The notes under the pieces are model-generated. The model saw only the letters and a program-made list of their open reading frames with translations. It was not told where the DNA came from and made no database searches. Both the position numbers and the translations under genes were made by a program. From Bolinopsis microptera (taxonomy: Eukaryota; Ctenophora; Tentaculata; Lobata; Bolinopsidae), in the NCBI RefSeq assembly GCF_026151205.1, contig NC_087081.1:374001-434000 (forward strand): a stretch of DNA of 60,000 bases, written 5' to 3'. Below are positions 1,671 to 43,162 of the stretch, one piece after another. Position 1 is the first letter of the stretch. Each line of letters begins with the position of its first letter.

Positions 1671-3281
1671 CTACCTAGGTTGGTTAGCAACGCCAATAAG
1701 AACTTTGGCTAACACACTGGTTCCAACAGGATTAAGATGGATACCATCCCTGTTAAATATATTAAAATCTAAAAGCCACATAGTAGGTGTCTTCTTTAGG
1801 AAAAAAGAGAAAAAGTCAACAAATCTTATACTTTCTTTCTTACACATCTCACTTAATAGATCATTAAACTTATGCATATTTCTAATATGTGTAAGATAAC
1901 TTGCCTTCCTAGGGACAAGTGAAAAGAAATTAATCTTAGCTGCAGGAAATACCTGTTTTGTTAGGATTATAAGGTCATTAATGTCTTCAAATATGCGTTT
2001 TATGTCAGAGTCTACAATCAAATTTTCAACATCATTTCCCCCGACTTGAAGGAACACAGTGGAAACATTAGATGTATTAAATTGCTTGGCACACTTTTCA
2101 ACTTCGTTATAAATGTCACAAGCGTGTGCTCCAGACCGGGAGATAACTTTAAAAATTTTTCCACGCCTGGAAAGTGTTTCAGTTTTCAAGCTCTTGAGGA
2201 GGGAGCTGCCAAACACAAAGGTATCAGGGTATGTGGCATCTTTGGAGGTGCTGGTTGCAGGGGAGGTATTCGGTTCTGCAGAAGGTTGTGGGGGAGGAGG
2301 GGAGGAGGATGGGGGAGGAGAATGGATAGCAGGAGGGGCTTCTTTAGGTGGGAGCAGACGTCGGAAGGTGACACTGTAACGGACTCCCCTTTCTTTCTGT
2401 ACATCTTTGTCTCCAGCAAGTATTTCATGGTAAAAAGATTGCTGGAAACCAGGCAACATCGTGAATATGCTCCCGGGAGTAAGAGTAAGGTACTTGACGG
2501 ATTTCTTTTTGTCAAGGGAAATGTTCATTTTCCGAGTTGCACCAATCGAGAGTGTTGATATTGGTGCACCTGGATCGAGGCCTGATTCATCATCCTTGTG
2601 GGGAGGAAGGCAACACACATATGAGCTGTACTTGTTAACTAACATAGAGTTATACTTTGTTCCTAGTGTTAAGTTAACAGTCTTCAGCAGTTTATCCATG
2701 ATGGTGTTGGGTTGGATAGAGACTGGTGAGAGGGCAGCAGATCTTCGATTGTATGCGTATCGTTGGCTGCCGTACAGGAAGGTATCTGGGCTTAAGTTTG
2801 TTCCAGACCTGCTGTAATTGATCTTCTTGACGTGTTCAAGGACTTCCTCAACCAGAGGCTCACTAAGGGGGTCATGTCGAAGATTATAGTGAAGGAGCAG
2901 CGGAGATGGAGAAGGTGGGGAAGAGGATGATGGACTCGATGATTCCTGTATTTTGGGTACTGAAGAGGGTGCAGAATCAAGTAGCGTGTTGGTATATTGG
3001 AGAAGGTTCTCCAATGTATTCTGCACCTTTCTAAGTTCTTCGTTAGCGAGATTTCCCAGTTGGGGAACTATAAGGTCTTTCAGTTTATCAAGTTCCATTG
3101 TAGAAGGAGAACATCTCCAGGGGTCGACAGTCAGCACAAGCACAGCAGCCCAAGGGGTCAGACGGTACACACAGCGGCATGATGTGCCTATCTGAAACGA
3201 GAATAAACGGCAGAAAAGGAATGGTAATGAGATATTGAAAAGTTTAGTTTTAAATAAATCATTGCAATTAAGAAGACTCAC
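1671..3281 (-). CDS. LINE-A ORF1: AlkB-like dioxygenase fused to SGNH hydrolase
   Basis: 536 codons from the first ATG. The likelier start is Met62 (ATG at 3096-3098), because the first 61 residues look untranslated and LINE-B ORF1 begins with a similar M-[ND/EL]-L helix at its internal Met. Residues 62-100 are helical, followed by a Ser/Pro linker. Residues ~135-310 look like an AlkB-type 2OG-Fe(II) oxygenase: H228-K-D230 (iron ligands), an ISTLSIGATRKM strand, distal H285, and R301-YSVTF-R307, the AlkB Rx5R signature that binds 2-oxoglutarate. A Pro-rich linker leads to an SGNH hydrolase at ~352-530: FGSS with Ser360 at the nucleophile site, GGND 414-417, and D512-G-I-H515. Block I reads GSS rather than GDS. 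Enzyme activity is inferred from motifs only. Confidence 0.8.
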   Translation of the reverse strand: MSLLNCNDLFKTKLFNISLPFLFCRLFSFQIGTSCRCVYRLTPWAAVLVLTVDPWRCSPSTMELDKLKDLIVPQLGNLANEELRKVQNTLENLLQYTNTLLDSAPSSVPKIQESSSPSSSSPPSPSPLLLHYNLRHDPLSEPLVEEVLEHVKKINYSRSGTNLSPDTFLYGSQRYAYNRRSAALSPVSIQPNTIMDKLLKTVNLTLGTKYNSMLVNKYSSYVCCLPPHKDDESGLDPGAPISTLSIGATRKMNISLDKKKSVKYLTLTPGSIFTMLPGFQQSFYHEILAGDKDVQKERGVRYSVTFRRLLPPKEAPPAIHSPPPSSSPPPPQPSAEPNTSPATSTSKDATYPDTFVFGSSLLKSLKTETLSRRGKIFKVISRSGAHACDIYNEVEKCAKQFNTSNVSTVFLQVGGNDVENLIVDSDIKRIFEDINDLIILTKQVFPAAKINFFSLVPRKASYLTHIRNMHKFNDLLSEMCKKESIRFVDFFSFFLKKTPTMWLLDFNIFNRDGIHLNPVGTSVLAKVLIGVANQPR

Positions 3282-3531
3282 GATGTAATTGAGTCATTTG
3301 GAAAACAATTTCAATAATAACAACATCCGAAAGACTACCATTAGGGCTCAATACAGACAGACACACTCTTACCTAGTCCCAAAGGTTTGGGCCGACACTT
3401 CGCAAGAAGTGCCGGATGCATTCCATCCAACTCCCAGACCCACTGAGCAGGTACATCATGTCTCGCCCCAGAGATGAGAGGTTATCAGTACATACTCCCC
3501 ATACGGGGTGTTACTTAGCACATTCCCTAAA

Positions 3532-3572
3532 CTCAAATTATTTGTTATATAGTAGTGTTGAAAGTATTAAAA
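3532..3572 (+). repeat. 41-bp dispersed repeat, single arm
   Basis: A segment beginning ctcaaattatttgttatata and ending gtattaaaa. It recurs nearly identically at 43999-44040 and as a perfect inverted pair at 46806-46902. Here it sits between LINE-A and the broken PRDM exon, ending three bases before the position where the splice acceptor and exon should begin. Confidence 0.85.
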
Positions 3573-3575
3573 CTG

Positions 3576-4693
3576 GTGGAATACAGTATTATTCATATAA
3601 ACCTATTGGGTTGGGAGAAGAATTACTAGTTTTCTACGGAGAGGACTATTTCGAAGAGTTAGGGTATTCGTTGCAGACTGATGTTGAAAATGGTAAGAAA
3701 AATTCTAGAGTAACAAATAGTCGTAAATTAAATGGTCACATCGAAGATTATCTTTATTACAAAATTCTGCTGGACAGTTCCTCACTTTATAACATTAATA
3801 CAGGTCAGCAATATCATTGCACTGCAACTGGTTGTCTGAAGCTGTTTAAGACACAACAAGAACTGGAGACACACACATGTGGGAAGAATCGAGTAGTATC
3901 AGGAAAAGAGAAAGTACACAAGTGTGATGTGTGTGGGAAGATGTTTGCTCAGAGATGTACCTTAACTGCACACATCAGAACTGTACACGATAAGGTAGCG
4001 AGACTGAGCTGTCCCTACTGTAAATATAAAACTGATCAGCAACCTAACCTCACACGTCACATGTTAACACACACGGGGGACAAACAGTACAAGTGTACAC
4101 AATGTGACTATACTGCTATTACGAAGCAGAGTCTTACTACTCACATCTACAATAACCACACTAACAAGACTTATAAGTGTCAGTACAAGCAGTGTGGTGT
4201 TAAGAAACCTTCTGAACAGGAACTATATGATCATATCAGTACAGAGCACCCACTACAACAATACAGATGTGATGTGTGTCCGATGTCTTATAACAGAGCA
4301 GATACTCTTGAGGCACATAGGCGAATACATGTTGATCGTGAGCTAGAATCACAACACGAGTGTAAGTACTGTGGAAAACTGTTTTTAAAATCTGGTACTC
4401 TGAAGAAACATGGTCTGACACACACTGGAGAGAAACCACACAAGTGTAATGTGTGTGGTAAAGGGTTTAATACGAACAGTAGTTTAAATAGACACATGAG
4501 GACACACACTGGAGAGAAACCACACAAGTGTAATGTGTGTGGTAAAGGGTTTAATACGAACAGTAGTTTAAATAGACACATGAGGACACACACAGGCGAG
4601 AAACCATTCTCCTGTTCTTACTGTGATAAGAGGTTTTGTGATAGTAATAACAAAAACAAACATGAAATTTTTTGCAAGAATAGACCTTGTTGA
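3576..4693 (+). pseudogene. PRDM9-like gene copy 0, last two exons only (truncated)
   Basis: Two exons homologous to exons 7 and 8 of the complete copies downstream. The last PR/SET exon is 3576-3692 (YYSYKPIGLGEELLVFYGEDY), followed by an intron (3693-3803) and a zinc-finger exon at 3804-4693. Exon 7 no longer has an AG acceptor: intact copies read ..ctag before GTGGAATAC, whereas here the exon follows aaaactg from the 41-bp repeat. Exons 1-6 and the promoter are absent, replaced by LINE-A sequence. The zinc-finger exon is fully open and 84 bp longer than the others, giving nine C2H2 fingers because finger 7 is exactly duplicated. The remaining intron also happens to be open in frame. It is probably dead unless transcribed from a LINE-derived promoter. 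Confidence 0.85.
4420..4587 (+). repeat. exact 84-bp tandem duplication of one C2H2 finger
   Basis: Two identical 84-bp units (4420-4503 and 4504-4587) each encode one 28-residue finger with helix NTNSSLNRH. The complete copies have one finger here. Exact whole-finger duplication in register is the minisatellite-like behaviour known for PRDM9 arrays. Confidence 0.9.
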
Positions 4694-4851
4694 GAATATT
4701 GTTATTGAGTTATTGGTAACTTTCTGTTATAGTTTGTTAAATTACTTAATGCTAACTGGACTATTTCTTCTGACTAAGTTATTACATAATTCTTAATTGT
4801 ATTTGATTTGTCATTTTCCAACTGATGTTCAAACTAATATTGTCAGAATAA

Positions 4852-4961
4852 CTTTGAACCAACATTTGATTAATATTTAAATTTAAGTTATATTTATTAT
4901 ATCTCTGTTGTAAACTAACTGTCGCTTCCAACTAAATCTAGTTTGTAATATTTAGAACATA
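4852..4961 (+). promoter_or_regulatory. conserved 5' flank of PRDM9-like copy 1
   Basis: About 110 bp directly before the start codon is nearly identical to 9316-9428 before copy 2, including the run ttgaaccaacatttgatta and the stretch ending tttagaacataATG. The gap from the preceding copy's stop is only 268 bp, so the promoter and 5' UTR probably lie within it. No clear TATA position can be assigned. Part of the similarity simply reflects recent duplication. Confidence 0.45.
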
Positions 4962-7900
4962 ATGTCACTGTGGAAGTTGTTTGAAGGGGCCAGGTACTGT
5001 GGAGGTGTGTGTGAACACAGTCTCAAAAGATACAAGAGAATAAGAGACAACAGAGATAAGTTGGTGGAACTGGGTTTTATGACACTAGATGAACCACTGG
5101 AATGTTACCGGACTAAAGAATGGGAGGAACATACCTCAGCCTACTCACAGTGTAAGCTTAATCTTCATCCGTTAAACAAATAATGAACTAACAATTAATT
5201 AACCTCTCAACCTCTGAACTTCTGCTCCAACTTTAAGTAGTCACTTCAGAAAGGCTACTGTGATAGATCAAATTATTGCCAAATTTTGTGAAATTTGTTT
5301 TTGATGACACAGTAGTCTCAAAACTCATTTTTCGTATATATTAACCATTATCTCATATCGCAGATGAAACATTGCTGAATCAGTATGAAGATGGGTTGAT
5401 AAAACTTGAGGAGGTTGTTAATATTGATCCCAGAAACCCCGCTGAGAGGTACAGCTCAGACAATGACAAAGACAGTCCTGTAGTCAATAAGAAGAAGAAA
5501 TCTCCCAACAAAAAGAAGAAGTCCCAGAAGGGGAAACATAAGAATGGAAGAGTTGAGTCTAAAAAGATAAAAGTAGAACAACTGGATTGTGTAGAATGTG
5601 TAAGACAAGTTAATCAGCCTGAAGAAGCTGAAGCTCCTGAAGTAGAGGAACTAGAGATGTTCCTACACTCAGAACCTGAGTCTGTACCAGCATTACAAGA
5701 TCTACTTGTCAACAAGAATCTAGCTTCTCACCTCGGAGAAGGTCCTGTAGATGTGTGTAAACTGATTGCAGAAAACCCTGAGTTTACACATGAAATATGT
5801 GAGGCTAACATAGACTCTCTTATGTCTGATGAGGAGTTCTATAAAATTACTTGTGAGACTTATCCTGGTGGCTGGGAGAAATTCCTGGAGGACATGTTAG
5901 TTACATTATATCTTCTTATTTAATTTGATTTAATAGCTTGAATCTTGATCATAATCGTGTTTTAGAACTTTTGTTCGTGTTTCTTTTTGCATAAATATTT
6001 GTCAGATTCTCAATGAAGTTCTCTTTTGAACCTAGTAATGTTATGATATTATATATTTAATGGGTACTACTTTACAGGGAGAATGAAGAGTCCTCAGATG
6101 AGGAGATAGATAGAATTGAGCTGCCTCCTGACCTCTATAATGAACTTATGTCAGACAAGAGTAATGATGTACCTGACGATGATGAGGAACAGTATAAGTT
6201 TGGTAGAATAAACAAGGACCAGGCAGATACTTGTCTTGATCGAGCACTTGAGTTGTATGATAACTATCACAACATGACGCAGGACGAGTTAGTTTTTACT
6301 TTTGATACTTTGTTGTCTTGCACATAAATATACATTAATGGCTTCTCTTAACAACTACATATAACATAATATATATTTTTTAATTGTAGTTGATTACATA
6401 GTGCTAGTGCATTTTAAATACGACTAACATGTTAATTGTTTATTCCGCAGGTATAACAAAAAAGTGAAGGAGGTGCTCAAAGATATGGATAGAATTACTG
6501 TTCTAGATAATGATGTCGACCATACCAAAGCGAGTACTAACAAAAGTATCATACCACAAAGCAAAGAATATGCCAGAACAACACCTGAACCGAATGACAA
6601 CTTACCCTCTTGTAGCGGTACACACAACGATACTGAACGTAGTGACATGGTAACTCCAGATAAAAGTAGCAGTAGTTATCATAAGAGTGAAACAGACAAT
6701 GTGAGAATTGATAACACATCTGGTGTAACAACAGAGTCTAATACCAGCTCCAGCTCTGTAACACAAACAAAGAAACTCCCCACCATACTCAGTAACAGAG
6801 AAGTGTACGAGAATATTGACAATATTCCCCGTCCTTCTTATTGGTTACCTGAGTCAGAACCTGACTCTGAGAAGAAAGAAGAAGAGATAGATGATTTTGA
6901 GTATCTAGGAATGTTGGATGATGGTTATCTACTGAGCTTGTTTGACGAAGATAAAGAATCAGAAGAGATGCCAAACACTGCACAGACACACATTAGTGTT
7001 CCTACAGAAATGACTGCTGAGAGAGATAACATTCAGGAAGACTTCTCCAAGACAGAAGTTGAAGCAGCTGCAGGAAAAGCTTCTAAAAATAGACGTAGTA
7101 ACCCTCCTAGAGTTGCTAAAGAGGGGGTTACATACCGTGATGATAACGATAATCTGGAGGAGGTGTTACAGTCTGAATATTGTAAGTTACAATGTAGACG
7201 GGAGTTTACTTATTGTTTATCAATACTATATGGTATTTTTTGTTATGTATCAGCAACTAAAATTCAAGTCTGAATTATAAAAATCCGTCAGAATCAGATG
7301 TTCAAAAGAATCTTTGCTTAAATTAAATAGTAATGTTACTGTTACTTTTACTGTAATAATTCGGTGGATTCTTTTATGAATGATGTTTTTAATGAAATTC
7401 TGTTTTTCAGTTTGCTGGCAGTGTAAAGATTATGTGAGGGGAGAATGTGAACTACATGGTCCTTTACTCCCCTGTTTAGAAGATATCACCCAACCTGGAA
7501 CTAAGAAGACTGCAAACTTCCCAGTACCTAGTTGTATTGAAATCAAAGAATCCACAATTCCCAGGGCTGGAGATGGAGCTTTTGCGTCTCAGTTTATTGA
7601 ACCAGGAATTATATTGGGTAGGTCACGTGGTGTGGTGAGATCAGACTTTACTCCTTTTTTTGGTGTCCACTGTGCCTTTCACCAGACAACAATTGCAAGA
7701 ATCTTTTGTATCTTAAAGTGAGTTGTTCTGATTTATCTATTTTATCAGGTAACTACAAGGGAAAAGTCATATCAGAAAAGGAGTACAAGAAGTTAGAGTC
7801 TTCAGATAAAGAGAGTGGATATGCGTGGAGAGCTGTTAGTCAGGACGGGGATGTTATCTATCTAGATGGGGCAAGTCACAGGGCTAGCAACTGGTTACGG

Positions 7901-9197
7901 TATCTTAACTGTGCTCGGGGTCAATGTGAAGAGAACGTTCTTGTAAGAAATATCCCAGGTAAAATGGGGTGTTCTTATTCGCCAGTTTTCTACTGCTATG
8001 CGTCATTCTTAGTTCTTATTTATCTTACTTACTTACTCTTACTTACTTAGATTCGCTATGTCAACCTGCAACTTACCATCCTCGGATTATTAAGCTCTAT
8101 TGTATTACGATGTATTCTGGTGATAAAATACCCTTTTATCATGGAATAATTCTTCTAGGTGGAATACAGTATTATTCGTATAAACCTATTGGGTTAGGAG
8201 AAGAATTATTAGTTTTCTACGGAGAGGACTATTTCGAAGAGTTAGGGTATTCGTTGCAGACTGATGTTGAAAATGGTAAGAAAAATTCTATAGTAACAAA
8301 TAGTCGTAAATTTCACATCGAAGATTATCTTTATTTCAAGATATTGCTGGACAGTTCCTCACTTTATTTCAGTAATATTTCATTAATACAGGTCAGCAAT
8401 ATCATTGCACTGCAACTGGTTGTCTTAAGCTGTTTAAGACACAGCAAGAGCTGAAGACACACACATGTGGGAAGACTCCGAGATTGTCAGGCAAAGAGAA
8501 AGTACACAAGTGTGACAAGTGTGGGAAGATGTTTGCTCAGAGATGTACCTTAACTATACACATCAGAACAGTACACGATAAGGTAGCGAGACTGAGCTGT
8601 CCTTACTGTAAATATAGGACTGATCACCAACAAGTTCTTACCCGTCACATGTTAACTCACAATGGGGACAAACAGTACAAGTGTACACACTGTGACTATA
8701 CTGCTATTACGAAGCAGCAACTCACTGCTCACATCTACAATAACCACACTAATAAAACATACAAGTGTCGGTACAAGCAGTGTGGTGTTAAGAAACCTTC
8801 TGAACAGGATCTATATGATCATATCAGCACAGAGCATCCACTACAACAATACAGATGTGATGTGTGTCCGATGTCTTATAACAGAGCAGATAATCTTGAA
8901 TACCACAGGCGAACACATGGTGATCGTGAGCTAGAATCACAACACGAGTGTAAGTACTGTGGAAAACTGTTTTTACAATCTGGTGATCTGAAGAAACATG
9001 CTCTGATACACACTGGAGAGAAACCATACAAGTGTAGTGTGTGTGGTAAGGGGTTTACTCAGAACAATCATTTAACTAGACACATGAGGACACACACAGG
9101 CGAGAAACTGTTCTCCTGTTCTTACTGTGATAGGAGGTTTAGTGTAGCTTCTAGCAAAAACAGACATGAAATTACTTGCAAGAATAGACCTTGTTGA
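4962..9197 (+). CDS. PRDM9-like histone methyltransferase / zinc-finger protein, copy 1
   Basis: Eight exons: 4962-5151, 5364-5895, 6078-6287, 6451-7181, 7411-7617, 7749-7958, 8159-8275, 8392-9197. All junctions are GT..AG and all phases match, giving about 1000 aa. Exon 1 has a KRAB-A-like end (KRYKRIRDNRDKLVELGF) resembling PRDM9's YRNVKRNY motif. Exon 2 has a Lys-rich nuclear-localisation stretch; exons 3-4 are acidic and Ser/Thr-rich. Exon 5 opens with a zinc knuckle C-x2-C-x8-C-x2-HGP (~556-572) spaced as in PRDM9, then the PR/SET domain through exon 7 (SGYAWRAV, NWLRYLNCARG, ELLVFYGEDY with the catalytic-type Tyr). Exon 8 holds eight C2H2 fingers (~770-995). PRDM9 trimethylates H3K4/K36 and places meiotic recombination hotspots; that role here is inferred. 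Alternatively it could be a related PR-domain regulator. Confidence 0.88.
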
Positions 9198-9428: not shown

Positions 9429-12400
9429 ATGTCACTGTGGAAGTTGTTTGAAGGGGCCAGGTACTGTGGAGGTGTGTGTGAACACAGTCTCAAAAGATAC
9501 AAGAGAATAAGAGATAACAGAGATAAGTTGGTGGAACTGGGTTTTATGACACTAGATGAACCACTGGAATGTTACCGGACTAAAGAATGGGAGGAACATA
9601 CCTCAGCCTGCTCACAGTGTAAGTTTAATCTTCATCCGTTAAACAAATAATGAACTAACAATTAATGAACCTCTCAACCTCTGAGCTTCTGCTCCAACTT
9701 CAAATAGGCTACTGTGATTGATCAAATTATTGCACGATTTTGTGAAATTAGTATTTTGACACGGTAGTGTCAAAACTCATTTCCGTATAAAATAACCATT
9801 ATCTCACATCGCAGATGAAATATTGCTGAATCAGTATGAAGATGGGTTGATAAAACTTGAGGAGGTTGTTAATATTGATCCCAGAAACCCCGCTGAGAGG
9901 TACAGCTCAGACAGTGACAAAGACAGTCCTGTAGTCAATAAGAAGAAGAAATCTCCCAACAAAAAGAAGAAGTCCCAGAAAGGTAAACATAAGAATGGAA
10001 GAGTTGAGACTAAAAAGATAAAAATAGAACAACTGGATTGTGTGGAATGTGTAAGACAAGTGAATCAGCCTGAAGAAGCTGAAGCTCCTGAAGTAGAGGA
10101 ACTAGAGATGTTCCTACACTCAGAACCTGAGTCTGTACCAGCATTACAAGATCTACTTGTCAACAAGAATCTAGCTTCTCACCTCGGAGAAGGTCCTGTA
10201 GATGTGTGTAAACTGATTGCAGAAAACCCTGAGTTTACACATGAAATATGTGAGGCTAACATAGACTCTCTTATGTCTGATGAGGAGTTCTATAAAATTA
10301 CTTGTGAGACTTATCCTGGTGGCTGGGATAAATTCCTGGAGGACATGTTAGTTACATTATATCTTCTTATTTAATTTGATTTAATAGCTTGAATCTTGAT
10401 CATAATCGTCTTTTAGAACTTTTGCCCGTGTTTCTTTTTGCATAAATATTTGTCAGATTCTCAATGATGTTTTGTTTTTGAACTAAACAATGTTATGATA
10501 TTATATATTTAATGGGTACTACTTTACAGGGAGAATGAAGAGTCCTCAGATGAGGATATAGATAGAATTGAGCTGCCTCCTGACCTCTATAATGAACTTA
10601 TGTCAGACAAGAGAAATGATGTACCTGACGATGATGAGGAACAGTATAAGTTTGGTAGAATAAACAAGGATCAGGCAGATACTTGTCTTGATCGAGCACT
10701 TGAGTTGTATGATAACTATCACAACATGACGCAGGACGAGTTAGTTTTTAATTTTGATACTTTGTTGTCTTACACATAAAAATTCTATGGCTTCTCGTAA
10801 CCACTGCATAATATATATTTTGTAATTGTAGTTGATTGCATAGTGCTAGTGCATATTAAATATTACTAACATGTTGATTCTTTATCCCGCAGGTATAACG
10901 AGAAAGTGAAGGAGGTGCTCAAAGATATGGATAGAATTACTGTTCTAGATAATGATGGCGACCATACCAAAGCGAGTACTAACAAAAGTATCATACCACA
11001 AAGCAAAGAATATATCAGAACAACATCTGAACCGAATGACAACTTACCCTCTTGTAGCAGAACACACAACAATACTGAACGTAGTGACATGGTAACTCCA
11101 GATAAAAGAAGCAGCAGTTATCATAAGAGTATAACAGACAATGTGAGAATTGATAACACATCTGGTGTAACAACAGAGTCTAATACCGTATCCAGCTCTG
11201 TAACACAAACAAAGAAACTTCCCACCATACTTAGTAACAGAGAAGTGTACGAGAATATTGACAATATTCCCCGTCCTTCTTATTGGTTACCTGAGTCAGA
11301 ACCTGACTCTGAGAAGAAAGAAGAAGAGATAGATGATTTTGAATATCTAGGAATGTTGGATGATGGTTATCTACTGAGCTTGTTTGACGAAGATAAAGAA
11401 TCAGAAGAGATATCAAACACTACACAGACACAGATTAGTGTTCCTACAGATACCACTGCTGAGAGTAATAACATTCAGGAAGACTTCTCCAAGACAGAAA
11501 TTGAAGCAGCTGCAAGAAAAGCTTCTAAAAATAGACGTAGTAATCCTCCTAGAGTTGCTAAAGAGGGGGTTACATACCGTGATGATAACGATAATCTGGA
11601 GGAGGTGTTACAGTCTGAATATTGTAAGTTACAATACATAGAGTTTACTTATTGTTTACTATATGGTATTTTTTGTTTGGTACGTAGCAACAACTGAAAT
11701 TTAAGTTGAAACTATCAGAATTATAATGATCCCTCAGAATTTTACTAAATCTTTGCTTAAATTAAATAGTAATGTTACTGTTTCTTTTACTGTAATAATT
11801 TGGTGGATACTTTTATAAATGATATTTATAATAGAATGGTTATGTTTTCAGTTTGCTGGCAGTGTAAAGATTATGTGAGGGGAGAATGTGAACTACATGG
11901 TCCTTTACTCCCCTGCTTAGAAGATATCAGCCAACCAGGAACTAAGAAGACTGCAAACTTCCCAGTTCCTAGTTGTATTGAAATCAAAGAATCTACAATT
12001 CCCAGGGCTGGAGATGGAGCTTTTGCGTCTCAGTTTATTGAACCAGGAAGTATATTGGGTAGGTCACGTGATTTCCTGGGATCAGCTATTACTTCTTTTT
12101 TTGGTGTCCACTTTCCCTTTCTCCAGACAGCAAGTCTATAAATGTTTTGTACCCTAAAGTGGGTTGTTCTGATTTATCTATTTTATCAGGTAACTACAAG
12201 GGAAAAGTCGTATCAGAAAAGGAGTACAAGAAGTTAGAGTCTTCAGATAAAGAGAGTGGATATGCGTGGAGAGCTGTTAGTCAGGACGGAGATGTTATCT
12301 ATCTAGATGGGGCAAGTCACAGGGCTAGCAACTGGTTACGGTTTCTTAACTGTGCTCGGGGTCAATGTGAAGAGAACGTCCTTGTTAGAAATATCCCAGG

Positions 12401-17725: not shown

Positions 17726-17795
17726 GGTTTCACTAATTCACTCGCCCACGGTGGAAAATATTGACCATTTCGCAGATTTTCGCCATGGATTATAG
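16521..17795 (+). pseudogene. RTE-like LINE reverse transcriptase half
   Basis: The frame is open from 16521, before the first ATG at 16581, which confirms a frameshift rather than a separate gene. RT blocks in order: HKSPGIDEISNEQLKYG, VPEDWVKGIIVIVPKKGD, NNRGITL, QCGFRKNRSCIDQI, YINFVDFKAAFDSLNR, SGSGQGDIQGPPIFN and DTDYADDLAIM with an intact YADD active site, then thumb sequence NFTYLGSIIS. Reverse transcriptase would copy the element RNA at the nicked target. The final ~25 residues after AFNQ do not look like LINE protein. Confidence 0.8.
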
Positions 17796-18690: not shown

Positions 18691-18694
18691 AGGA

Positions 18695-33900: not shown

Positions 33901-34464
33901 GTAAACATTCAATTTATTACCATTCCCAACTCTAACACCTATGGGAGACGGCCCTGGGTTTACAATTCCAGGGTTTACTAAAACTATCAAAAAACCATTC
34001 ATCAAAAACAACCAAATTATGCATCCCGTGAGTGTATTGCCGGTTCTACCAGTAAATATGCAATTTAAGTTCTTATGGATTGAAATCTGGCAAAATCTAT
34101 ATAAACCATCGAAACTGTAATTATTCCTCAGATAATACATATTTGCTAAATATAAAAAGAAATAAACTGTAAAGCATCGGCACAAGTTAGGAACTGGGTA
34201 TGTTGGTACAAAGGCTCGGCAATCATAAGTGACCCTAGAAAAAGCCAACCCACTTACCCCGACATATGTGATAGTGATTAGCGAAAAGTGACATATGAAT
34301 ATAACATAAAAAATATAAAATAATAAGCGAGAATCAATGCAGCTGTCTAAATAATCAAAAATACTACCTGTACCACGTCTACGGTTCTGATGTTTGATGG
34401 ATTTTGCAAAAGAATTTCCACTAAACACTCCAACTCTAAATCTGTATGTTACTAAATCGATCAT
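30934..34464 (-). CDS. LINE-B ORF2: hydrophobic leader, endonuclease, reverse transcriptase
   Basis: 1176 aa, uninterrupted. Three hydrophobic segments (~47-75, ~97-112, ~147-164) precede NPGP and the EEP endonuclease: VYFQNVQGL ~187, NETW 231-234, ILGDFNLTGVSW with GDFN 354-357, and KSDHFPINF ~424. RT blocks: AYGPDGIHGK ~651, HIVPIFKKGD, NYRPISLTCLITKVLERI, QHGFRAERSCATNL, VVYFDFAKAFDSVNHD, SGVPQGSILGPLLF ~835 and LYADDTKIW with YADD 868-871. No RNase H or terminal zinc knuckle is evident. It nicks target DNA and copies the element RNA; the domain order suits a CR1/L2-like clade. The hydrophobic leader is unusual for a LINE protein and is shared with LINE-A. Confidence 0.9.
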   Translation of the reverse strand: MIDLVTYRFRVGVFSGNSFAKSIKHQNRRRGTGSIFDYLDSCIDSRLLFYIFYVIFICHFSLITITYVGVSGLAFSRVTYDCRAFVPTYPVPNLCRCFTVYFFLYLANMYYLRNNYSFDGLYRFCQISIHKNLNCIFTGRTGNTLTGCIIWLFLMNGFLIVLVNPGIVNPGPSPIGVRVGNGNKLNVYFQNVQGLIPFGELNNAHPMIDTTKCLEVSTYLNEAKIDIAILNETWFKSSIADSEFLHPDRYKIFRSDRSKKTHPPDPSNPTRFRRNGGGVMIAVRADLDLTSKEVHLKYGAEILAVEFKTSTGIKFVVCTCYRVGTLGSANHEKIVESLKTLLRRRGLSKVFILGDFNLTGVSWSTLASSCPIEQSFVESFVDLGLQQCVLTPTHCKGKTLDLLLTNSVSNINDLMVGERDSACKSDHFPINFKINVKVGRKKPVRRMCYNFKTVNWERLNHELRHTNWDALLNGTEPEIGWKKFKDKLFNVTDKFVKKCSVKTDGQDPWFDSECYDAWRKKVRLHKERHKSDRAEIAFSLARKNFKNVVAQKMRETLNESDDSALITKKFWSYVKSKTASQRIPEFVSHKGTVRNCPEDQANLFNDFFFEQFSEASTYDIDIDYSNDWRFDIEFDHRRVRKILSNINANKAYGPDGIHGKLLKNCAVGLAYPISILFHSCYNIGTLPREWKLGHIVPIFKKGDKHEVSNYRPISLTCLITKVLERIIRDELLALTNGMINDKQHGFRAERSCATNLVGLCDSLALSLNENMRTDVVYFDFAKAFDSVNHDLILFKLKSKFGIDGRLLKFITDYLRDRQQQVLISGKFSSMRNAQSGVPQGSILGPLLFIMFIDDISVGISPGTQLSLYADDTKIWRKIVSESDILRLQKDIDYLHDWSLSNKMRFHPDKCKVLTVAGRISETVSLLSVLPLFNFVYSMGRITFDYVDHEKDLGVIVTSNLDWKDQCSKVLSKANQKLGMARRNCYFVQDVNRRRVLYLTLVRSLFEHCSVIWRPVTKSQISKLEGLQKRAIKWILHEEYMSYPPSTYIQKCRQLKIMPIEDRFDFLDLIFFFKIVKQHIPVTLPSYLQPFQGHSRLRNSHMDSLCFVSSISPRASSNAFAKNFFYRTHTKWNHIPLDIREIESITDFKSKLSTYMWGKIIPVDSDSELDYSIETNP

Positions 34465-34546
34465 GGTGTTTTACAGGTGAGTATACTTGCCAGACTACAA
34501 CTGCATATCATTAGCTTAACAAGGTTCAGAAGACAGCACAAAAGAA

Positions 34547-35992
34547 CTACTGATAGATATAAGGATTAAAATATCTACTGTGGATGGCACGAATATAAAA
34601 TCTGGCCAACACACCCATACCTTTCTGAGGATTGGGGTGAATGCCTTTGTTCTCAAATAAGGGATCAAATCTCTTAACAGGCTCACTTAGAGCTCTCTTA
34701 AACTTTGTAAAGGGATAAAACACATCCATGAAAAAGAACCTCCTAAATACACACTCATTGTATAAAATCCTATTAAAATCCATTACCCTCTTGTTAGTTA
34801 ATTTATCGTTATCATTCTGTAAAGGTAATGGCAATAGAGATTGAACATATACCTTACAGTTGGGAAATAATAGGCCTATCTTACCAAAAAGTTGCTTTAC
34901 TGGTCCCCTCAAAATACCAATTTTATCCCCCACACGCCTAATATCGTTTGTGCCTACGCTGATCAGAAGCTTCTCAACGTGGACATCAGGATGTGCCGTG
35001 CAGTAGTCCTCCAACTGTTTCTGGACTTTGTCCATTTTTGCTCCGCCTTCTGCAACATTTACGACTGTGACTTTCCCTTTTCCCAGCTTTGCGGAGTCCA
35101 ATCTTTGAGCATAAGAGTCTCCAGCAACCAACGTGACTCTTTGCGCAGGTACTTGGGCTTCGGTGCCAGAAGCTGGTGTACTAGTCTCTGTGCTGATATT
35201 CTGAGAGCTAACTTGGCCACCAGATTTCACAATAGCTCGAAATGACAGGGAGTATCTTACTTGCTCCGATTTCTTTGGAGGCTCTCCCTTTGTGGCCGGC
35301 TCTGCTCGCACAGCATGCCTCAGATTCTGCTGTGTCCCAGGCCGCATTACAACAAGACTGTTGTTCTTCATCCTTATCGTCTTGACACAATTAGGTTTCC
35401 CAGTTGTGCCCTCGTAAAACTCAAGCGTCCGTTCACATCCCAGTGAGAAAGAGCAAATCGATTTCTCCTGGTCCATTAGTTTCTCACCGTCATTGTGTAT
35501 TGAAGTACTCGCTTGGTTGTTTCCATACTTGATGACCAGACATGAGTCCAGAGGTCCAGTTATCTCCGTACTCGAGTTTACAAGACTCAGGAGTCTTTTG
35601 ATATTAGGGAAACCACTGATATCCTGTGGTGGGTGCACTGGATTTGTGTCAGTGTAAATATAGGGTGCATCCTGTGAGCACAACCAAGCTGTTGTTGCCT
35701 TGTGTCTTCCCTCGGTGTTCAGTTTCTGCAGGGACTCACATTCAACCCATACCGCATCACGGAGAACCTCATCCTCGCAGAAGTCCTCTATATGTAACAC
35801 AAAATTGTCCACCTTTCCCTCACGCTTTGGCAGCTCGTTTTGAACAGAGTTAAGGATATGACGTAGATCCTCAACTGAGGCAGCTTTGACATAGTCGAAA
35901 ATCTCTTGAAGGTTTATCATTGTTGTCAGAGATTGTCGAGTCTGGCAGCAAAGTTTGCCAGGGAACCATCCGTAACACCTCAGAGTAGGCAA
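34547..35992 (-). CDS. LINE-B ORF1: AlkB-like dioxygenase fused to SGNH hydrolase
   Basis: 481 codons from the first ATG; Met25 (ATG 35918-35920, MINLQEIFDYV) is the likely start, by analogy with LINE-A. Residues ~105-255 carry the AlkB-type signature: H166-N-D168 with preceding CLVIKYG, the strand ICSFSLGCERTLEF, distal H226 (RHAV) and R246-YSLSF-R252. A short linker follows, then an SGNH hydrolase: VAGDS with G291-D-S293, EGGAKM, SVGTND 347-350 and KGIHPN with His452. The residue three before that His, normally the catalytic Asp, is Lys449, so the hydrolase may be weakened or the Asp misaligned. The dioxygenase should need Fe(II) and 2-oxoglutarate; its substrate is unknown. Confidence 0.82.
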   Translation of the reverse strand: MPTLRCYGWFPGKLCCQTRQSLTTMINLQEIFDYVKAASVEDLRHILNSVQNELPKREGKVDNFVLHIEDFCEDEVLRDAVWVECESLQKLNTEGRHKATTAWLCSQDAPYIYTDTNPVHPPQDISGFPNIKRLLSLVNSSTEITGPLDSCLVIKYGNNQASTSIHNDGEKLMDQEKSICSFSLGCERTLEFYEGTTGKPNCVKTIRMKNNSLVVMRPGTQQNLRHAVRAEPATKGEPPKKSEQVRYSLSFRAIVKSGGQVSSQNISTETSTPASGTEAQVPAQRVTLVAGDSYAQRLDSAKLGKGKVTVVNVAEGGAKMDKVQKQLEDYCTAHPDVHVEKLLISVGTNDIRRVGDKIGILRGPVKQLFGKIGLLFPNCKVYVQSLLPLPLQNDNDKLTNKRVMDFNRILYNECVFRRFFFMDVFYPFTKFKRALSEPVKRFDPLFENKGIHPNPQKGMGVLARFYIRAIHSRYFNPYIYQ

Positions 35993-37700: not shown

Positions 37701-37758
37701 AGGTGGTTTCGATGTTATGTTCATGACAAGGTATGGGGCTGCTGCAAGTTATATTTTG

Positions 37759-40700
37759 CTAAGATATTACAGCTTTTTCAAGCTTAAGTAATCTTGGCAA
37801 GGTCAATTTTAAAGTTTTTGAATTTTGTCGAACGCTGTTTAAGGCTAGGTTCCAGTCATTTGGTTCTCCTTCCTTTTGAGTGTGAGTGATGGTGATTCTT
37901 ATGGATGATTTGAGGTGATTGGGTTTATAACAGGTGAATGTAGTTAGCATGAGATTTTGTCGTACTGTATTCCATATTGTCCCTGCTCTGTATATGTAGC
38001 TGTCTGATGGTTTAGGTGTGAGAATGAGTGTCTCTTTGCCAAGTCTGCCAGATGTTTCAAAGAGGGAGTATAGTGATATAGGGGTTCTATATTTCAAGAC
38101 CTTGAAGATGTCATTAATACAATGGTAGAAGTACAGATTATGCACATTCATGATTTCATGAGCGTTAAAGAGGGGTTTTGTATGTTCCTTTCTGTAGAAT
38201 TCCTTGCCCAGGATTTGCTCCCCGTAGGGTCTGCATCGTGCACTAGTTTTAAATTTATCCAAGTATGCTTCTTTATCTCCAAACATTATGCGGGCACACA
38301 TTTTCTGTGCTTTGAAAAGAGGTTCAAGTTTTTTGTTAGATGCCCCTCCCCAGACAGTTATACCATATGCAAGATAGCTTTCAAACAGAGTGTGATATAG
38401 ATCTTTATGGAGTGATGTGGGAATGTTATCTTTAATTCTATTTAGCATGCCACAGCAGCTGGCTAGTTTTTTTGCTAATTTCCTTCTATGTGCGTTCCAG
38501 TTTAGGTCTTCATCGATTGTTACACCTAAGAATTTAGTTTCATGTACTCTCTCCAAAGGTATGCCATTGATATTGATTTCTTGATCAGATGGTGTATCTT
38601 CATCTTTGTTGGATCGAGAGTTTGAGAATTCAAGGTAACAGCTCTTGCCAGTGTTTATGTGAAGTTTATTGGCAAGCATGTAGCGGTGTACGGAACTTAG
38701 GACTTCATTGGCTTTTTTGTATGCTAGGTTTTTACTTTTTGCAGCGACGAAGATATTTGTGTCATCAGCAAATAGAACAAATTTAGAGTTCTTTTCAGAG
38801 TTTGTGAGATCGTTTATGTAAATTAAGAACAGAAGGGGCCCTAAGCAGCTCCCCTGTGGCACTCCAAAAAGCACAGGTAAAGTATCAGATATTTCATTGA
38901 GCACACCAACATATTGTTTACGGTCGGAAAGATAACTTTCCAGGAGTTTGTGTGCCCGTCCTCTGATCCCGTATGTGTTTAATTTTTTGAGAAGTATTGA
39001 GTGATCTATTGTATCAAATGCTTTACTTAGGTCGATAAAGATTCCTAAAACATGATTACCGGCTTTGAGTGATTGCTGAATGTGGTGAATTGAGTAGTTG
39101 AGTGCATGTGATGTTGAATGACCTTTTCGGAACCCAAACTGGCTATCGTGCAGTATTCCCTGACTTGAGAGAAAACCATAAAGCCGTGAGTAGATAACCT
39201 TTTCAAAAATTTTACCAAAAATTGGGAGAGTAGAAATTGGACGATAATTTTGTAAGTGTTCTTCATTATCTTTTTTGTAGATGGGGCTAATTTTACCTAT
39301 CTTAAGGATGGCGGGAAAGCATCCTGTTGACATAAGGTTGTTGTATTGTATGGAAAGGACTGGGCTGAGAATGTGTGAGGCCTTTTTAATAACACTGATG
39401 GGGAAATCACTAGCTTTGCCATTTTGTAGCTCGGAAATGATATGAGATATTTCACCCTCAGTGCAGTCTGTTAAGTACATCGTATTTGGGTTAGTTTTTG
39501 GTAAAAATTCAACAAATGAAGGCAGTGGCTCAATTTTCATTTCCCCATCAACTTGTTCATTCAATTTCGACGCTATTGAGGCAAAGTACTCATTAAATTT
39601 GTTGGCTATGAGTCTCCGTTCTGTGATACGTACTCCGTCGACACAGAATTGAGGCTTTATGGTTTTTTTGCATTTTCCTCTTAACTCATTGATAACTTCC
39701 CAAGTCTTTTTACTGTCTCCTTGATGACCCATAATCTTAGTACAGTAATATTTCTTTTTTTGACTTTTTATTACACCTTTAAGACAGCGACGATAGTTTG
39801 AAAATTTGGTGTGAAGATCAATATTTCCACCTGGACTAAATTCTTTTGACTTTTTCGAGGCTATCCAGTCATCATACAGCTCCTCTTTAGTTGAAATAGC
39901 TTCTGAAATTCCATCTGTCATCCAAGGATTGTTAATTGGATTTCTTTTGGAGACTTTGGGTTTTTCTAATTTGCAGTTAGAGTCAATTGTATGTGTGAAG
40001 ATGTCAAAGAAGCTTTCAAAGTTGGTACTGTTTGCCAGGATATCTTCTTTGGATTCAAGGTCTGTAATTAAAGTATCAACATTTTTCTTGGAGAAACTGT
40101 AGTGTTGGAGTAGCTTTTGATCGGAAGAATTTTCGTTCATAGGCATGCAAAGGTTGAACATGGCTATGATTGGTTTGTGGTGGGAATTCATGTCATCAAT
40201 TACCCCAGACATCGTGACGTGTTCAATGTCATCGGTGAGTATGTTATCTATACAGGAACATTGTTGAATGTTTGTGGAATGAGTTGGTAATGAGATGAGC
40301 GGAAAGAATCCCAATGAAAGAAACAAATTTTCAAATTTTTGAGTTGTGGGATTTGTTCTCTTTAGAAGGTCAAAGTTGTAGTCTCCCAAAATTATAGATT
40401 TTATGTCTTTGGGGAAGAGTGACTTCAGGTGTGTCAACTCATTGAGAAACTCTTTCGAATCCCCATTGGGTGATCTATAAACCACGCCAACATTAACTTT
40501 TTCACTCCCTTTATTGACAGTAACGAAGAGTGATTCAAGGTTTTTAGTTGTACTGATAAGCTTGTCGTTTATGGTTGCATTGAAGGAACAGTGGATATAT
40601 AAACAGACACCAGTTCCTTTTGTTTTATTTGGAATTTTATCATTATAGAAGTGCGAGTAGTTGCTTAATTTGTACAGATCACCTTTGTTTTGATTAACAT

Positions 40701-41169
40701 TTGTTTCAGCAAGAGCAATAGCTGAGTAGGTAAGTTTTTGCATGCTCATTTCTGCAGAAAAGGAGTCAAAGTTGGATAGATTTCCATCTATATTGTAGAA
40801 CATTGTGCTAAAATCAGTGTTATTTGGGACCTTTTCATGGACTGATTTAAGTTTGTAACTCTTACAGTTTTCCAAAATTGTAGATGCTTGGTTAATACAA
40901 TCAAAGGACTCCAGGAAGTCTTCTGAGTAGAACTTATCATCAGACTCTTTGTCAAGTCCTATGAGTTCCTTAAAGGGGTTGTAGATCATGACACTAATAC
41001 TGAAGCAGTTGGTACATGAGTGTCCAGAGCCTCCTTGGCTAAATTTTGATTTTTTGAAGCATAATTTGTGTATTATTTTGGGACAATTTTGACATTCCAA
41101 GTATCCTTGACCAATAAGGATGTTTTTGTTGCAGCAGTCGCATATTTCTCGTTTGATTGATGGAGTCAT
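37759..41169 (-). CDS. LINE-C ORF2: PHD-like zinc domain, endonuclease, reverse transcriptase
   Basis: 1136 aa, uninterrupted. The N-terminus has a C4HC3 zinc pattern: C10-x2-C13, C26-x2-C29, H34-x2-C37, C52-x2-C55. The endonuclease follows at ~122-340: ALAETN with E155, IILGDYNFDLLK with GDYN 262-265, and SHHKPIIAMF ~329. RT blocks: KISPIYKKDNEE, NYRPISTLPIFGKIFEKVIY, QFGFRKGHSTSHAL, GIFIDLSKAFDTIDHS, FGVPQGSCLGPLLFLIYIND and VLFADDTNIFV with FADD 800-803, then a thumb (ETKFLGVTIDEDLNW). The catalytic residues needed for nicking and reverse transcription are present. It starts four nucleotides after the ORF1 stop, so translation probably relies on termination-reinitiation. Confidence 0.9.
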   Translation of the reverse strand: MTPSIKREICDCCNKNILIGQGYLECQNCPKIIHKLCFKKSKFSQGGSGHSCTNCFSISVMIYNPFKELIGLDKESDDKFYSEDFLESFDCINQASTILENCKSYKLKSVHEKVPNNTDFSTMFYNIDGNLSNFDSFSAEMSMQKLTYSAIALAETNVNQNKGDLYKLSNYSHFYNDKIPNKTKGTGVCLYIHCSFNATINDKLISTTKNLESLFVTVNKGSEKVNVGVVYRSPNGDSKEFLNELTHLKSLFPKDIKSIILGDYNFDLLKRTNPTTQKFENLFLSLGFFPLISLPTHSTNIQQCSCIDNILTDDIEHVTMSGVIDDMNSHHKPIIAMFNLCMPMNENSSDQKLLQHYSFSKKNVDTLITDLESKEDILANSTNFESFFDIFTHTIDSNCKLEKPKVSKRNPINNPWMTDGISEAISTKEELYDDWIASKKSKEFSPGGNIDLHTKFSNYRRCLKGVIKSQKKKYYCTKIMGHQGDSKKTWEVINELRGKCKKTIKPQFCVDGVRITERRLIANKFNEYFASIASKLNEQVDGEMKIEPLPSFVEFLPKTNPNTMYLTDCTEGEISHIISELQNGKASDFPISVIKKASHILSPVLSIQYNNLMSTGCFPAILKIGKISPIYKKDNEEHLQNYRPISTLPIFGKIFEKVIYSRLYGFLSSQGILHDSQFGFRKGHSTSHALNYSIHHIQQSLKAGNHVLGIFIDLSKAFDTIDHSILLKKLNTYGIRGRAHKLLESYLSDRKQYVGVLNEISDTLPVLFGVPQGSCLGPLLFLIYINDLTNSEKNSKFVLFADDTNIFVAAKSKNLAYKKANEVLSSVHRYMLANKLHINTGKSCYLEFSNSRSNKDEDTPSDQEININGIPLERVHETKFLGVTIDEDLNWNAHRRKLAKKLASCCGMLNRIKDNIPTSLHKDLYHTLFESYLAYGITVWGGASNKKLEPLFKAQKMCARIMFGDKEAYLDKFKTSARCRPYGEQILGKEFYRKEHTKPLFNAHEIMNVHNLYFYHCINDIFKVLKYRTPISLYSLFETSGRLGKETLILTPKPSDSYIYRAGTIWNTVRQNLMLTTFTCYKPNHLKSSIRITITHTQKEGEPNDWNLALNSVRQNSKTLKLTLPRLLKLEKAVIS

Positions 41170-41173
41170 TTAT

Positions 41174-43162
41174 TCATACAGGGTTTGGTGGGCCACCTCT
41201 GAGTGCGTTAGAATATAGCCTACTGCTTGATAGTTTGGTTTTACTAGATTTAAATTGAAAGATGCAGCGTTTTAATAGAACAACAAGGATGCTGGTGCAT
41301 TTTCTATTGAGATGGAGTTCATCTCCAACATCAGTCTTTGCAAGATCATAATCTAAAAGATTTGTTCGCTTGTCTAGGAACTTAATAAAACCTTCAACTA
41401 GGATAACTTTAAGATCACACTGGCATAAATCTTCAGCAATAAACCTATTAAACAAAAATATTCTACGGTTCTTATCGTGTGACTTTGTGGGAAGTACTGG
41501 ACATATGAACATTTTACATTTAGGGTTGTACTTCCTTATCAGACTAAGTTTTGTTTTATATTGCTTATAAAGTTCTTTGACCTTTTGGTCGGTGACTTTG
41601 TTCTTAAGGTCATTAGTGCCCACCATTAGCACAACATTACGGTATGATGTGCATGATAGTGGGTCTATTGAGTCTATTGTAGGAGCCCAAGATCTGAGGC
41701 CAGGGGTCGATTCTCCAAGTTTACCTTTGCCGCTTCCGAATGTTATGGGCCCAAAGTTAGAATCCCCTACGAGAATAGTTGAGTTGAAGTTTGACCAATG
41801 GATGGCCCTGAATGTAAGGCTGAAGCGAATGCCGTCAGAAACAGAATCATCATCTTCTTCTTTGATGGTGTGTTTGAAGAAGTCTTGACTATGCCTAGTC
41901 ATCTGGTACATGCTTCTGCTATTACATTTGACAGTCATTGTTTCGTCAGACTGTAAGTTCCTAAACTGAAGGTGACGTGGGATCCCTAGAGATATGGTGA
42001 AGATAGATGACTTAGGGTCAATGTCCCCCTCATTGTCTGCGTGTTCTGGGAGAGTTGACTCCTTATCATCATACATGTTCACTAGGCAAGAGTTTAGTCT
42101 GTAGTGGTGCCTTTCCTCTTGGTGTGAAGACCCATACTCATTGTTGAGACGCTCCATCAGTTTCTTGATGGGTTCGGGCATCTCCAAAGGGTTTGACTTT
42201 GAACCCATGTACTTGTAGTGCTCTCCATATTGAAGTACATTTCTTTGCCCCTCTAATGAGAAGTCTGCAATTTGATTCTGTAGCATATTCATGAGGTCGC
42301 TCTCTTCTTTCTCTGTGATGTAGTCTTCTAGCTGGTTTTCTACATGCTTTATATCAGGAACCAAGTTGATTGAACTGACATTTTCTACTTGAATTGGGAC
42401 CCTCCTAGGGGGTTGTGGTGGTTGTGGAGGACTGTAGTCGTTCATTTGAGGAGGAGGAGGACGGTTAGGAGTGTTCTTTAAGGATGCTATGTTTTGGGTT
42501 AGCTCTGTCAGCTGATGTTGTATCGATGAAATGAAGTCAGTCGTGGGTTGGTTAATATGCTTCATTTTCTGCTCTACTATACCCTCAAGGGACTCAATTA
42601 CCTCAGCCGAGATTTGGTTTGCATAGCAAGTTGTTTGCAATGCGTTTGCTAACTTAGCAGACTTATGATTCTTTGGTCTTGGGTATGGGGCAACAAAGCA
42701 CCAGGGACAGCCCCAATTGGGAAGCAATGAATCAATCCCCTTCTGGGTAAGATCTGTACCATTCAAGTTTGCACATAGAGAGTGCCAAACTTGGCCACAG
42801 TCCTTACAGGTCAAAAGCCAAGACTTACCCCCGGAGGTTCTGCAGCAGGGGCATTTAGACTTGGTGACTTTGGATTTTGGCTTTGATGTGCTGGTGCTGT
42901 CATCACTAACATTTTCTTCAGACTCTGACACTGATGTCGCCAGAGGTGAAGCACGGCCACTTTTGAGGAGTGACGTCTGTAGGAGGCTCTTATTGCTGGG
43001 GGTTCTTTCAAAGGTAGAGTTCACGATTACACTTCGCTTATCACTTTCACTCTTGGATGATCTGGTTCTTTTATCTAGGTGGGGGCTCATCAAGGAGATG
43101 GGGGTCCTAGGTGAGTTTCTGTCAAGTCTTTTTCCGCTCATATTATTGAGAATATTGATCAC
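41174..43162 (-). CDS. LINE-C ORF1: PHD finger, AlkB-like dioxygenase, SGNH hydrolase
   Basis: 662 aa. After a Ser-rich basic start comes a PHD-type finger: C104/C107, C119/C122, H127/C130, C152/C155. Coiled-coil-like helices (~180-230), a Pro-rich linker and a helical segment follow. Residues ~345-455 match AlkB: LNSCLVNMYDD, LPEH374-A-D376, FTISLGIPRHLQF, K430-H431 and R446-FSLTF-R452. The SGNH domain follows directly: VGDS with G466-D-S468, VGTND with GTND 515-518, and D614-E-L-H617. All three signature blocks of both enzymes are present. PHD fingers usually read histone H3 tails and could guide integration. The initial Met may instead be Met8. Activity is inferred. Confidence 0.85.
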   Translation of the reverse strand: MINILNNMSGKRLDRNSPRTPISLMSPHLDKRTRSSKSESDKRSVIVNSTFERTPSNKSLLQTSLLKSGRASPLATSVSESEENVSDDSTSTSKPKSKVTKSKCPCCRTSGGKSWLLTCKDCGQVWHSLCANLNGTDLTQKGIDSLLPNWGCPWCFVAPYPRPKNHKSAKLANALQTTCYANQISAEVIESLEGIVEQKMKHINQPTTDFISSIQHQLTELTQNIASLKNTPNRPPPPQMNDYSPPQPPQPPRRVPIQVENVSSINLVPDIKHVENQLEDYITEKEESDLMNMLQNQIADFSLEGQRNVLQYGEHYKYMGSKSNPLEMPEPIKKLMERLNNEYGSSHQEERHHYRLNSCLVNMYDDKESTLPEHADNEGDIDPKSSIFTISLGIPRHLQFRNLQSDETMTVKCNSRSMYQMTRHSQDFFKHTIKEEDDDSVSDGIRFSLTFRAIHWSNFNSTILVGDSNFGPITFGSGKGKLGESTPGLRSWAPTIDSIDPLSCTSYRNVVLMVGTNDLKNKVTDQKVKELYKQYKTKLSLIRKYNPKCKMFICPVLPTKSHDKNRRIFLFNRFIAEDLCQCDLKVILVEGFIKFLDKRTNLLDYDLAKTDVGDELHLNRKCTSILVVLLKRCIFQFKSSKTKLSSSRLYSNALRGGPPNPV

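Follow-up and report, generated by a model that had tools for sequence, protein, structure and literature searches.

A two-enzyme ORF1 protein, AlkB-type dioxygenase plus SGNH hydrolase, in ctenophore LINE retrotransposons, with the same pair in Helitrons

Three LINE retrotransposons with a two-enzyme ORF1 protein

We analyzed a 60,000-nt stretch of the genome of the ctenophore Bolinopsis microptera (NC_087081.1, positions 374,001–434,000, forward strand), hereafter the window, whose own positions serve as coordinates throughout. The window carries three long interspersed nuclear element (LINE) retrotransposons—LINE-A, LINE-B, and LINE-C—in which the protein of the first open reading frame (ORF1) is a fusion of two enzymes, i.e., an ALKBH2/3-like 2-oxoglutarate (2OG)- and Fe(II)-dependent dioxygenase and an SGNH hydrolase (Table 1). 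The SGNH-bearing ORF1 lies upstream of an ORF2 for endonuclease and reverse transcriptase (RT), the layout of type IV (esterase) ORF1s; ORF2 of LINE-A leaves the window at its start and is complete in the genome assembly (locus L009, 1174 aa). An AlkB profile search of the window found no AlkB ORFs beyond these three.

Table 1. Positions of the LINE features in the window
Feature	Position	Strand	Description
LINE-A ORF1	1671-3098	-	open, 475 aa counted from first Met; AlkB + SGNH
LINE-A AlkB domain	2355-2783	-	HKDDE at 2600, RYSVTFR at 2381; ALKBH2 sequence match E 1.5e-7
LINE-A SGNH hydrolase domain	1683-2225	-	GSS...GGND...DGIH
LINE-A ORF2, N-terminal part	1-1470	-	RT motif beyond window start
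LINE-B ORF1	34547-35920	-	open, 457 aa counted from first Met; AlkB + SGNH
LINE-B AlkB domain	35222-35815	-	H170-x-D172-x-E174 (HNDGE) at 35497; H230; R250-R256 (RYSLSFR) at 35257
LINE-B SGNH hydrolase domain	34565-35146	-	Pfam + structure model
LINE-B ORF2	30934-34470	-	1178 aa frame; Exo_endo_phos endonuclease + RVT_1 reverse transcriptase
LINE-C ORF1	41174-43141	-	open, 655 aa counted from first Met; PHD-like finger, coiled coil, AlkB, SGNH
LINE-C PHD-like zinc finger	42695-42871	-	under Pfam cut-off; Cys/His columns conserved in 64 aligned relatives
LINE-C helical, coiled-coil-like segment	42476-42649	-	secondary structure of model
LINE-C AlkB domain	41795-42358	-	HADNE at 42043, RFSLTFR at 41827
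LINE-C SGNH hydrolase domain	41252-41791	-	Pfam (under cut-off) + structure model
LINE-C ORF2	37759-41169	-	1136 aa frame; endonuclease (weak) + reverse transcriptase

A reading made from the sequence alone had proposed these three fusions on the strength of the HxD motif and the RYSVTFR, RYSLSFR, and RFSLTFR blocks. All of these motifs are present exactly as read, the ORFs are open, and the motifs belong to whole domains, to which LINE-C adds a PHD-like finger and a coiled-coil-like helix. The Pfam model PF13532 (2OG-FeII_Oxy_2, cut-off 31.2 bits) matched above its cut-off in all three proteins, with 51.2 bits (E 2.3e-13) for LINE-A, 60.0 bits (E 4.8e-16) for LINE-B, and 75.3 bits (E 1e-20) for LINE-C, while NCBIfam gave AlkB matches under its cut-off for LINE-A and LINE-C and none for LINE-B. 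Each ORF1 has a single HxDxE motif, and all three read H-D-H-R-R at the iron triad and the two 2OG-site arginines of RxxxxxR. Structure prediction, which the sequence-only reading had named as a check, placed both an AlkB-type double-stranded β-helix and an SGNH fold in the LINE-B and LINE-C models; the LINE-A domain is known from its sequence. LINE-B ORF1 matched ALKBH3 (E 0.0017) and LINE-C ORF1 matched ALKBH2 (E 0.0045) by sequence. Chance occurrence of the motifs is thus rejected, the Pfam scores and structure models being far beyond chance, and the ALKBH2/3-like fold together with HxDxE favors a putative nucleic-acid base demethylase.

GDSL/SGNH models likewise matched all three proteins, above the cut-off in LINE-A (PF00657, 23.9 versus 23.6) and LINE-B (PF13472, 40.5 versus 32.9) and below it in LINE-C (25.2 versus 32.9). 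By sequence, LINE-A matched SGNH esterases with an E value of 2.2e-5 and the zebrafish ORF1p esterase (Protein Data Bank 4c1b) weakly, with an E value of 0.33. Blocks I (GDS), III (GxND), and V (His) were found alongside the SGNH fold modeled for LINE-B and LINE-C. Three residues before the catalytic histidine, LINE-A and LINE-C have aspartate. Since LINE-B has lysine there (34637-34648, minus strand), its hydrolase may rely on a Ser-His dyad or be altered.

Conservation and purifying selection

Homolog searches over 5.8 billion proteins returned 123 proteins for LINE-B (of which the best 120 were taken), 92 for LINE-C, and 28 for LINE-A, giving 240 proteins for analysis. An AlkB profile built here matched all 240, with an SGNH domain downstream of AlkB in 236 at E<1e-5 and in 237 at E<0.01. 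Among them were three proteins of Mnemiopsis leidyi (P0069, P0154, P0164) and one annotated as LOC134823106 of B. microptera (P0131); another (P0186) came from a metagenome-assembled genome labeled Saccharospirillaceae and is, in our view, mis-binned. Most of the remaining homologs carry no organism label.

The AlkB alignment comprised 271 rows of homologs, window and genome ORFs, and three host-like genes, with two places represented twice and several near-identical copies. Of the 266 rows with letters at all five key columns, 262 read H-D-H-R-R; the iron ligands were invariant (266/266), and the four exceptions alter one or both arginines. The glutamate of HxDxE was present in 266 of 268 rows. 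In the SGNH alignment (280 rows), the catalytic residues were about as strict, with serine in 275/275, asparagine in 277/278, and histidine in 260/261 rows with letters.

To quantify selection, ratios of nonsynonymous to synonymous divergence (dN/dS) were calculated by the Nei-Gojobori method. A screen took ORFs shorter than 1200 aa with an SGNH match at E<1e-8 and pairs 40–98.5% identical over at least 300 columns; no LINE-A pair passed this filter, and rows with saturated dS yield no ratio. In a separate comparison, LINE-B against an 80%-identical family gave 0.15 for AlkB (dS 0.86) and 0.10 for SGNH versus 0.43 for the linker, while against a 40% family dS was saturated in both domains. The window's LINE-C compared with two copies gave 0.09 and 0.19 for AlkB, 0.12 and 0.10 for SGNH, and 0.24 and 0.28 for the rest. 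In related families, six LINE-E pairs yielded 0.03–0.05 for AlkB, 0.10–0.17 for SGNH, and 0.20–0.35 for the rest; three LINE-F pairs yielded 0.10–0.13 for AlkB and 0.05–0.27 for SGNH; and the LINE-D AlkB gave 0.24–0.30 between near families and 0.12–0.13 between far ones. Two low-divergence pairs had higher ratios (L036–L037, 0.51; L042–L044, 0.72), with too few changes to weigh at a dS of 0.01–0.02. The low values are conservative, since neutral drift of copies after insertion raises the ratio. Together, these results support purifying selection on both domains of LINE-B, LINE-C, and their relatives. The domain ratios of LINE-B, LINE-C, LINE-E, and LINE-F thus lie well below 1, and the earlier suggestion of purifying selection on both signatures holds for LINE-B and LINE-C (AlkB 0.09–0.19, SGNH 0.10–0.12), the window's elements with usable pairs. 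A decayed passenger domain is rejected by these ratios and the invariant iron ligands.

Carriers elsewhere in the genome

A first look at the genome gave 587 PF13532 candidates. Among the 150 that were scored, all those listed were above the cut-off and all but one were free of stops. Loci were chosen from the best PF13532 matches and are not a random sample of LINEs. A search with LINE-B ORF1 returned 91 matches in all, some of them from diverged families and some interrupted by stops. Seven of them, the window's included, are top-score copies over all 485 residues, on five contigs, so the elements look young, and the identical copies are presumably young. Fetched loci and window together provided 45 AlkB ORFs at 43 places (L005 and L011 are the same place, as are window LINE-A and L009), and 41 of the 45 (39 of 43 places) also have an SGNH domain. 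Of the four without it, three (L001, L002, and L003) are host-like; the fourth, L021, is interrupted and has its SGNH domain in another frame. L002 is a separate host ALKBH3-like gene (human ALKBH3 match, E about 1e-39).

ORF2 followed ORF1 on the same strand in LINE-A, LINE-B, LINE-C, L015, L018, L020, L022, L025, L026, L027, and L028; in L022 and L027 it occupies two frames. In L018–L020, the SGNH domain is far C-terminal, and L019 has weak coiled-coil-type matches ahead of it. A search for direct repeats at the LINE-B 3′ end found just four families of 12–13 nt; inspection of element ends by eye gave no firm boundary, and no target-site duplications were defined.

Two loci have unusual surroundings. 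In L015, a 1163-aa frame (2332-5820, plus strand) has a Penelope-like RT upstream of the LINE AlkB and SGNH domains, identified by visual inspection of motifs (YRDD, for example) and without a Pfam match at E 10; the frame is probably a chimera from one insertion, because L043 and L027, close to it in AlkB and SGNH, differ upstream. In L049 (G000:C5), the host-like AlkB ORF also seen as L003 (3955-4842, plus strand) has a separate SGNH ORF in the same orientation 0.7 kb downstream (5554-6411, plus strand), with no further ORF of at least 150 aa in 9.4 kb, simple-repeat frames excepted. This pair may be either a host gene pair or an old domesticated element.

The same enzyme pair in Helitrons

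The AlkB–SGNH pair was also found in Helitrons, a point absent from the sequence-only reading. The ORF at L010:3383-9901 (plus strand), extended by L029:3-3746 (plus strand; G000:C10:16874382-16884545), forms a single 3388-aa frame with, in order, SGNH (residues 10–177), AlkB (488–620), DUF6570 (1660–1772), Helitron Rep (1897–2096), and then a PIF1 helicase. Both Helitron hallmarks occur in this one frame (PF14214, Helitron_like_N, 80.1 bits; PF05970, 79.8 bits), and its AlkB domain matched ALKBH3 (E 2.1e-10). The order SGNH–AlkB is the reverse of that in the LINEs. L011 has the same order as far as Rep, L017 has SGNH–AlkB, followed by DUF6570 in the next frame, and L016 has SGNH–AlkB; L012, L013, L014, L016, and L024 were called Helitrons by AlkB/SGNH similarity and mostly long frames, without a Rep search.

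A quick AlkB tree was built from 58 of the 240 homologs (at least 120 aa in the domain, <55% mutual identity), 19 genome or window rows, and three references, namely ALKBH2/3-like proteins and Escherichia coli AlkB. A careful tree dropped E. coli AlkB for its long branch and 26 of the 58 homologs, leaving 53 domains, five of them host-like or human ALKBH2/3. The other 48, all from transposons, form one side of a branch (support 98/86). Within them, Helitron and LINE-A-type AlkBs make up a 13-row clade (100/97), LINE-E branches first, and LINE-B, LINE-C, LINE-D, and LINE-F group elsewhere (95/84). A single clade of LINE AlkBs excluding Helitrons was rejected by the approximately unbiased test (p-AU 0.010), as was a LINE-A plus LINE-B clade excluding Helitrons (p-AU 0.034, or 0.039 with P0238 added), these p values being exploratory because the groups were named after the quick tree.

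The RTs tell a different story. In a 14-row tree comparing these elements with one another (its row E23 being an opposite-strand ORF beside LINE-E ORF1, not LINE-E itself), LINEs with the pair fell into at least four ORF2 groups: LINE-A and LINE-B; LINE-C, L015, L025, and L027; L022, L026, and L028; and L018 and L020. The LINE-A and LINE-B RTs are sisters (100/99), and the two elements are 45% identical over 1071 residues of ORF2 versus 23% in ORF1. The AlkB and RT histories are thus discordant. For SGNH, in a tree where long branches meet, the test of a common transfer with AlkB between LINEs and Helitrons gave a p-AU of 0.164, favoring neither outcome. AlkB and SGNH need not share one history, since the LINE-D SGNH sits weakly beside that of LINE-A (81/63) and its AlkB beside that of LINE-F (80/57). 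Our reading is that LINEs have probably swapped ORF1 modules and that one transfer, in either direction, involved a Helitron and a LINE-A-like element.

Other features of the window

A further LINE-like element (15059-17795, plus strand) has an endonuclease frame followed by an overlapping RT frame; its RT is distant from those of LINE-A, LINE-B, and LINE-C and nearest to that of LINE-E. Three consecutive C2H2 zinc-finger ORFs lie on the plus strand at 3377-4693, 8376-9197, and 12888-13709, the first with a weak PR-domain-like match ahead of its fingers (PRDM2_PR, E 0.004, under the cut-off), a possible PRDM-like cluster. They alternate with two similar plus-strand ORFs (6428-7273 and 10870-11697) without a Pfam match at E 0.01, forming a duplicated unit. 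Long in-frame simple repeats occupy 18557-20020 (plus strand, PSLP), which continues into an RT fragment, and 21176-21799 (minus strand, GREG).

Discussion

What might a transposon gain from this pair of enzymes? AlkB, ALKBH2, and ALKBH3 oxidatively remove methyl groups from N1 of adenine and N3 of cytosine, positions exposed in single strands. Titles of Protein Data Bank entries among the structural neighbors mention these lesions. We propose that ORF1p would coat the element RNA and that its AlkB domain would oxidatively strip Watson–Crick-face methyls, such as N1-methyladenine (m1A) and N3-methylcytosine (m3C), which hinder RTs, from the RNA template, before or during reverse transcription, and from single-stranded cDNA. 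The Helitron AlkB would do the same on the single-stranded rolling-circle DNA intermediate, and the SGNH domain would anchor or release the particle at membranes, a tethering role proposed for the esterase of zebrafish ZfL2-1 ORF1p (PMC3905857). AlkB treatment clears m1A and m3C from tRNA, and m1A impedes an R2-type RT (PMC12140624). Protection of single-stranded intermediates would explain why one module serves both RNA-copying and DNA-copying transposons, while an explanation limited to RNA and cDNA may be too narrow, since Helitrons carry the same pair without an RNA template. Taken whole, with repair by AlkB and membrane action by SGNH, we rate this explanation at almost an even chance.

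An alternative that we think unlikely, though by no means far-fetched, is that AlkB erases host-placed regulatory marks—N6-methyladenine (m6A) in RNA, or its DNA counterpart on a new copy—and thereby evades silencing or decay instead of repairing damage. The AlkB domain of an orchid Ty3/Gypsy element demethylates m6A RNA in vitro (PMC9289625), DNA methyltransferases have been captured by retrotransposons of other eukaryotes (PMC5890265), FTO and AlkB–m6A complexes appear among the structural neighbors, and LINE-C joins a PHD-like finger to AlkB; however, the nearest folds belong to ALKBH2/3, as does the HxDxE signature, and a LINE would not obviously benefit from losing m6A, because the m6A eraser ALKBH5 suppresses L1 in human cells (PMC7873242). 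It is also conceivable, but improbable, that AlkB is retained chiefly to bind nucleic acid, its fold standing in for the RRM and CCHC domains of other ORF1ps, with catalysis secondary. The zebrafish esterase did not bind oligo(A), and the authors speculated that esterase-type ORF1ps bind RNA through charged peptides with no folded domain (PMC3905857), a gap that AlkB could fill; yet binding alone leaves the invariant iron ligands and near-invariant 2OG-site arginines unexplained. An origin of these ORFs as host genes, or as chance fusions beside unrelated LINE pieces, has next to no probability: gene predictors did name one relative as an uncharacterized gene (LOC134823106), but the copy number of LINE-B ORF1 on its five contigs rejects a host gene beside LINEs, and a same-strand ORF2 follows ORF1 in the three window elements and eight further loci.

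Some plant RNA viruses, likewise selfish RNA-copying elements, have an AlkB domain within the viral replicase polyprotein, where it has been proposed to repair RNA. Several LINE families of this ctenophore have the AlkB–SGNH pair, and so does an unrelated kind of transposon, which suggests that a repair or mark-erasing tool was captured by mobile DNA and has stayed functional there. Going further, ctenophore transposons could share AlkB plus SGNH as a mobile cassette that passes between non-LTR (long terminal repeat) retrotransposons and Helitrons, stays catalytically alive in both, and repairs or un-marks their own single-stranded nucleic acid—the transposon equivalent of viral AlkB and a defense against base methylation by the host. 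We advance this wider picture tentatively and would not bet on it.

Parts of this architecture have precedents. Like ZfL2-1 ORF1p (4c1b), the type IV ORF1s of CR1/L2-type LINEs contain an SGNH hydrolase, some LINE ORF1s have a coiled coil or PHD domain as in LINE-C (PMC3905857, PMC4120745), and transposon esterases are known from CR1, RTEX, and Penelope elements of chordates, cnidarians, and sponges (PMC3905857). Esterase ORF1s, PHD ORF1s, and reticulate ORF1 evolution were therefore already known (PMC4120745), but the word AlkB is absent from the main text of these two papers, while here AlkB precedes SGNH. Another retroelement-captured AlkB, Gypsy_Pa_2799 of Phalaenopsis, belongs to a plant LTR element, is ALKBH5-like, and lies in a separate ORF2, in contrast to the SGNH-fused, ALKBH2/3-like domains of animal non-LTR elements and Helitrons described here (PMC9289625). 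The ORF1 AlkBs have the fold, iron ligands, and 2OG-site arginines of ALKBH2, ALKBH3, and E. coli AlkB, and the HxDxE of ALKBH2/3; they are only 16–22% identical to ALKBH2/3 in the structural alignments listed, and are transposon ORF1–hydrolase fusions versus host repair genes. Retrotransposons bearing methyl-CpG-type readers (MBD) reportedly exist as well. Elements with DNA methyltransferases likewise captured nucleic-acid modification machinery (PMC5890265); those cases involve a methyltransferase or a reader, whereas the enzyme here is of the oxidative demethylase type. The sequence-only reading put the fusion forward as a candidate for a previously undescribed system, and searches of the open-access literature, which do not cover Repbase and most subscription papers, turned up neither a LINE ORF1 nor a Helitron described as having AlkB. 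Capture of nucleic-acid modifying enzymes by transposons is already known; here AlkB–SGNH is seen across several LINE lineages as well as in a second class of transposon.

In ctenophores, AlkB gene counts may be inflated by ORFs of this kind, which matters for annotation. The pair also illustrates how modules can pass from one class of transposon to another. Little is understood about the ORF1 proteins of LINEs, and an ORF1 with known enzyme chemistry, strictly conserved catalytic residues, and identical copies makes its role directly testable by one-residue mutants. Finally, the presence of the same enzyme pair in RNA-copying and DNA-copying classes suggests that transposition is held back by methylated or alkylated bases in single-stranded intermediates.

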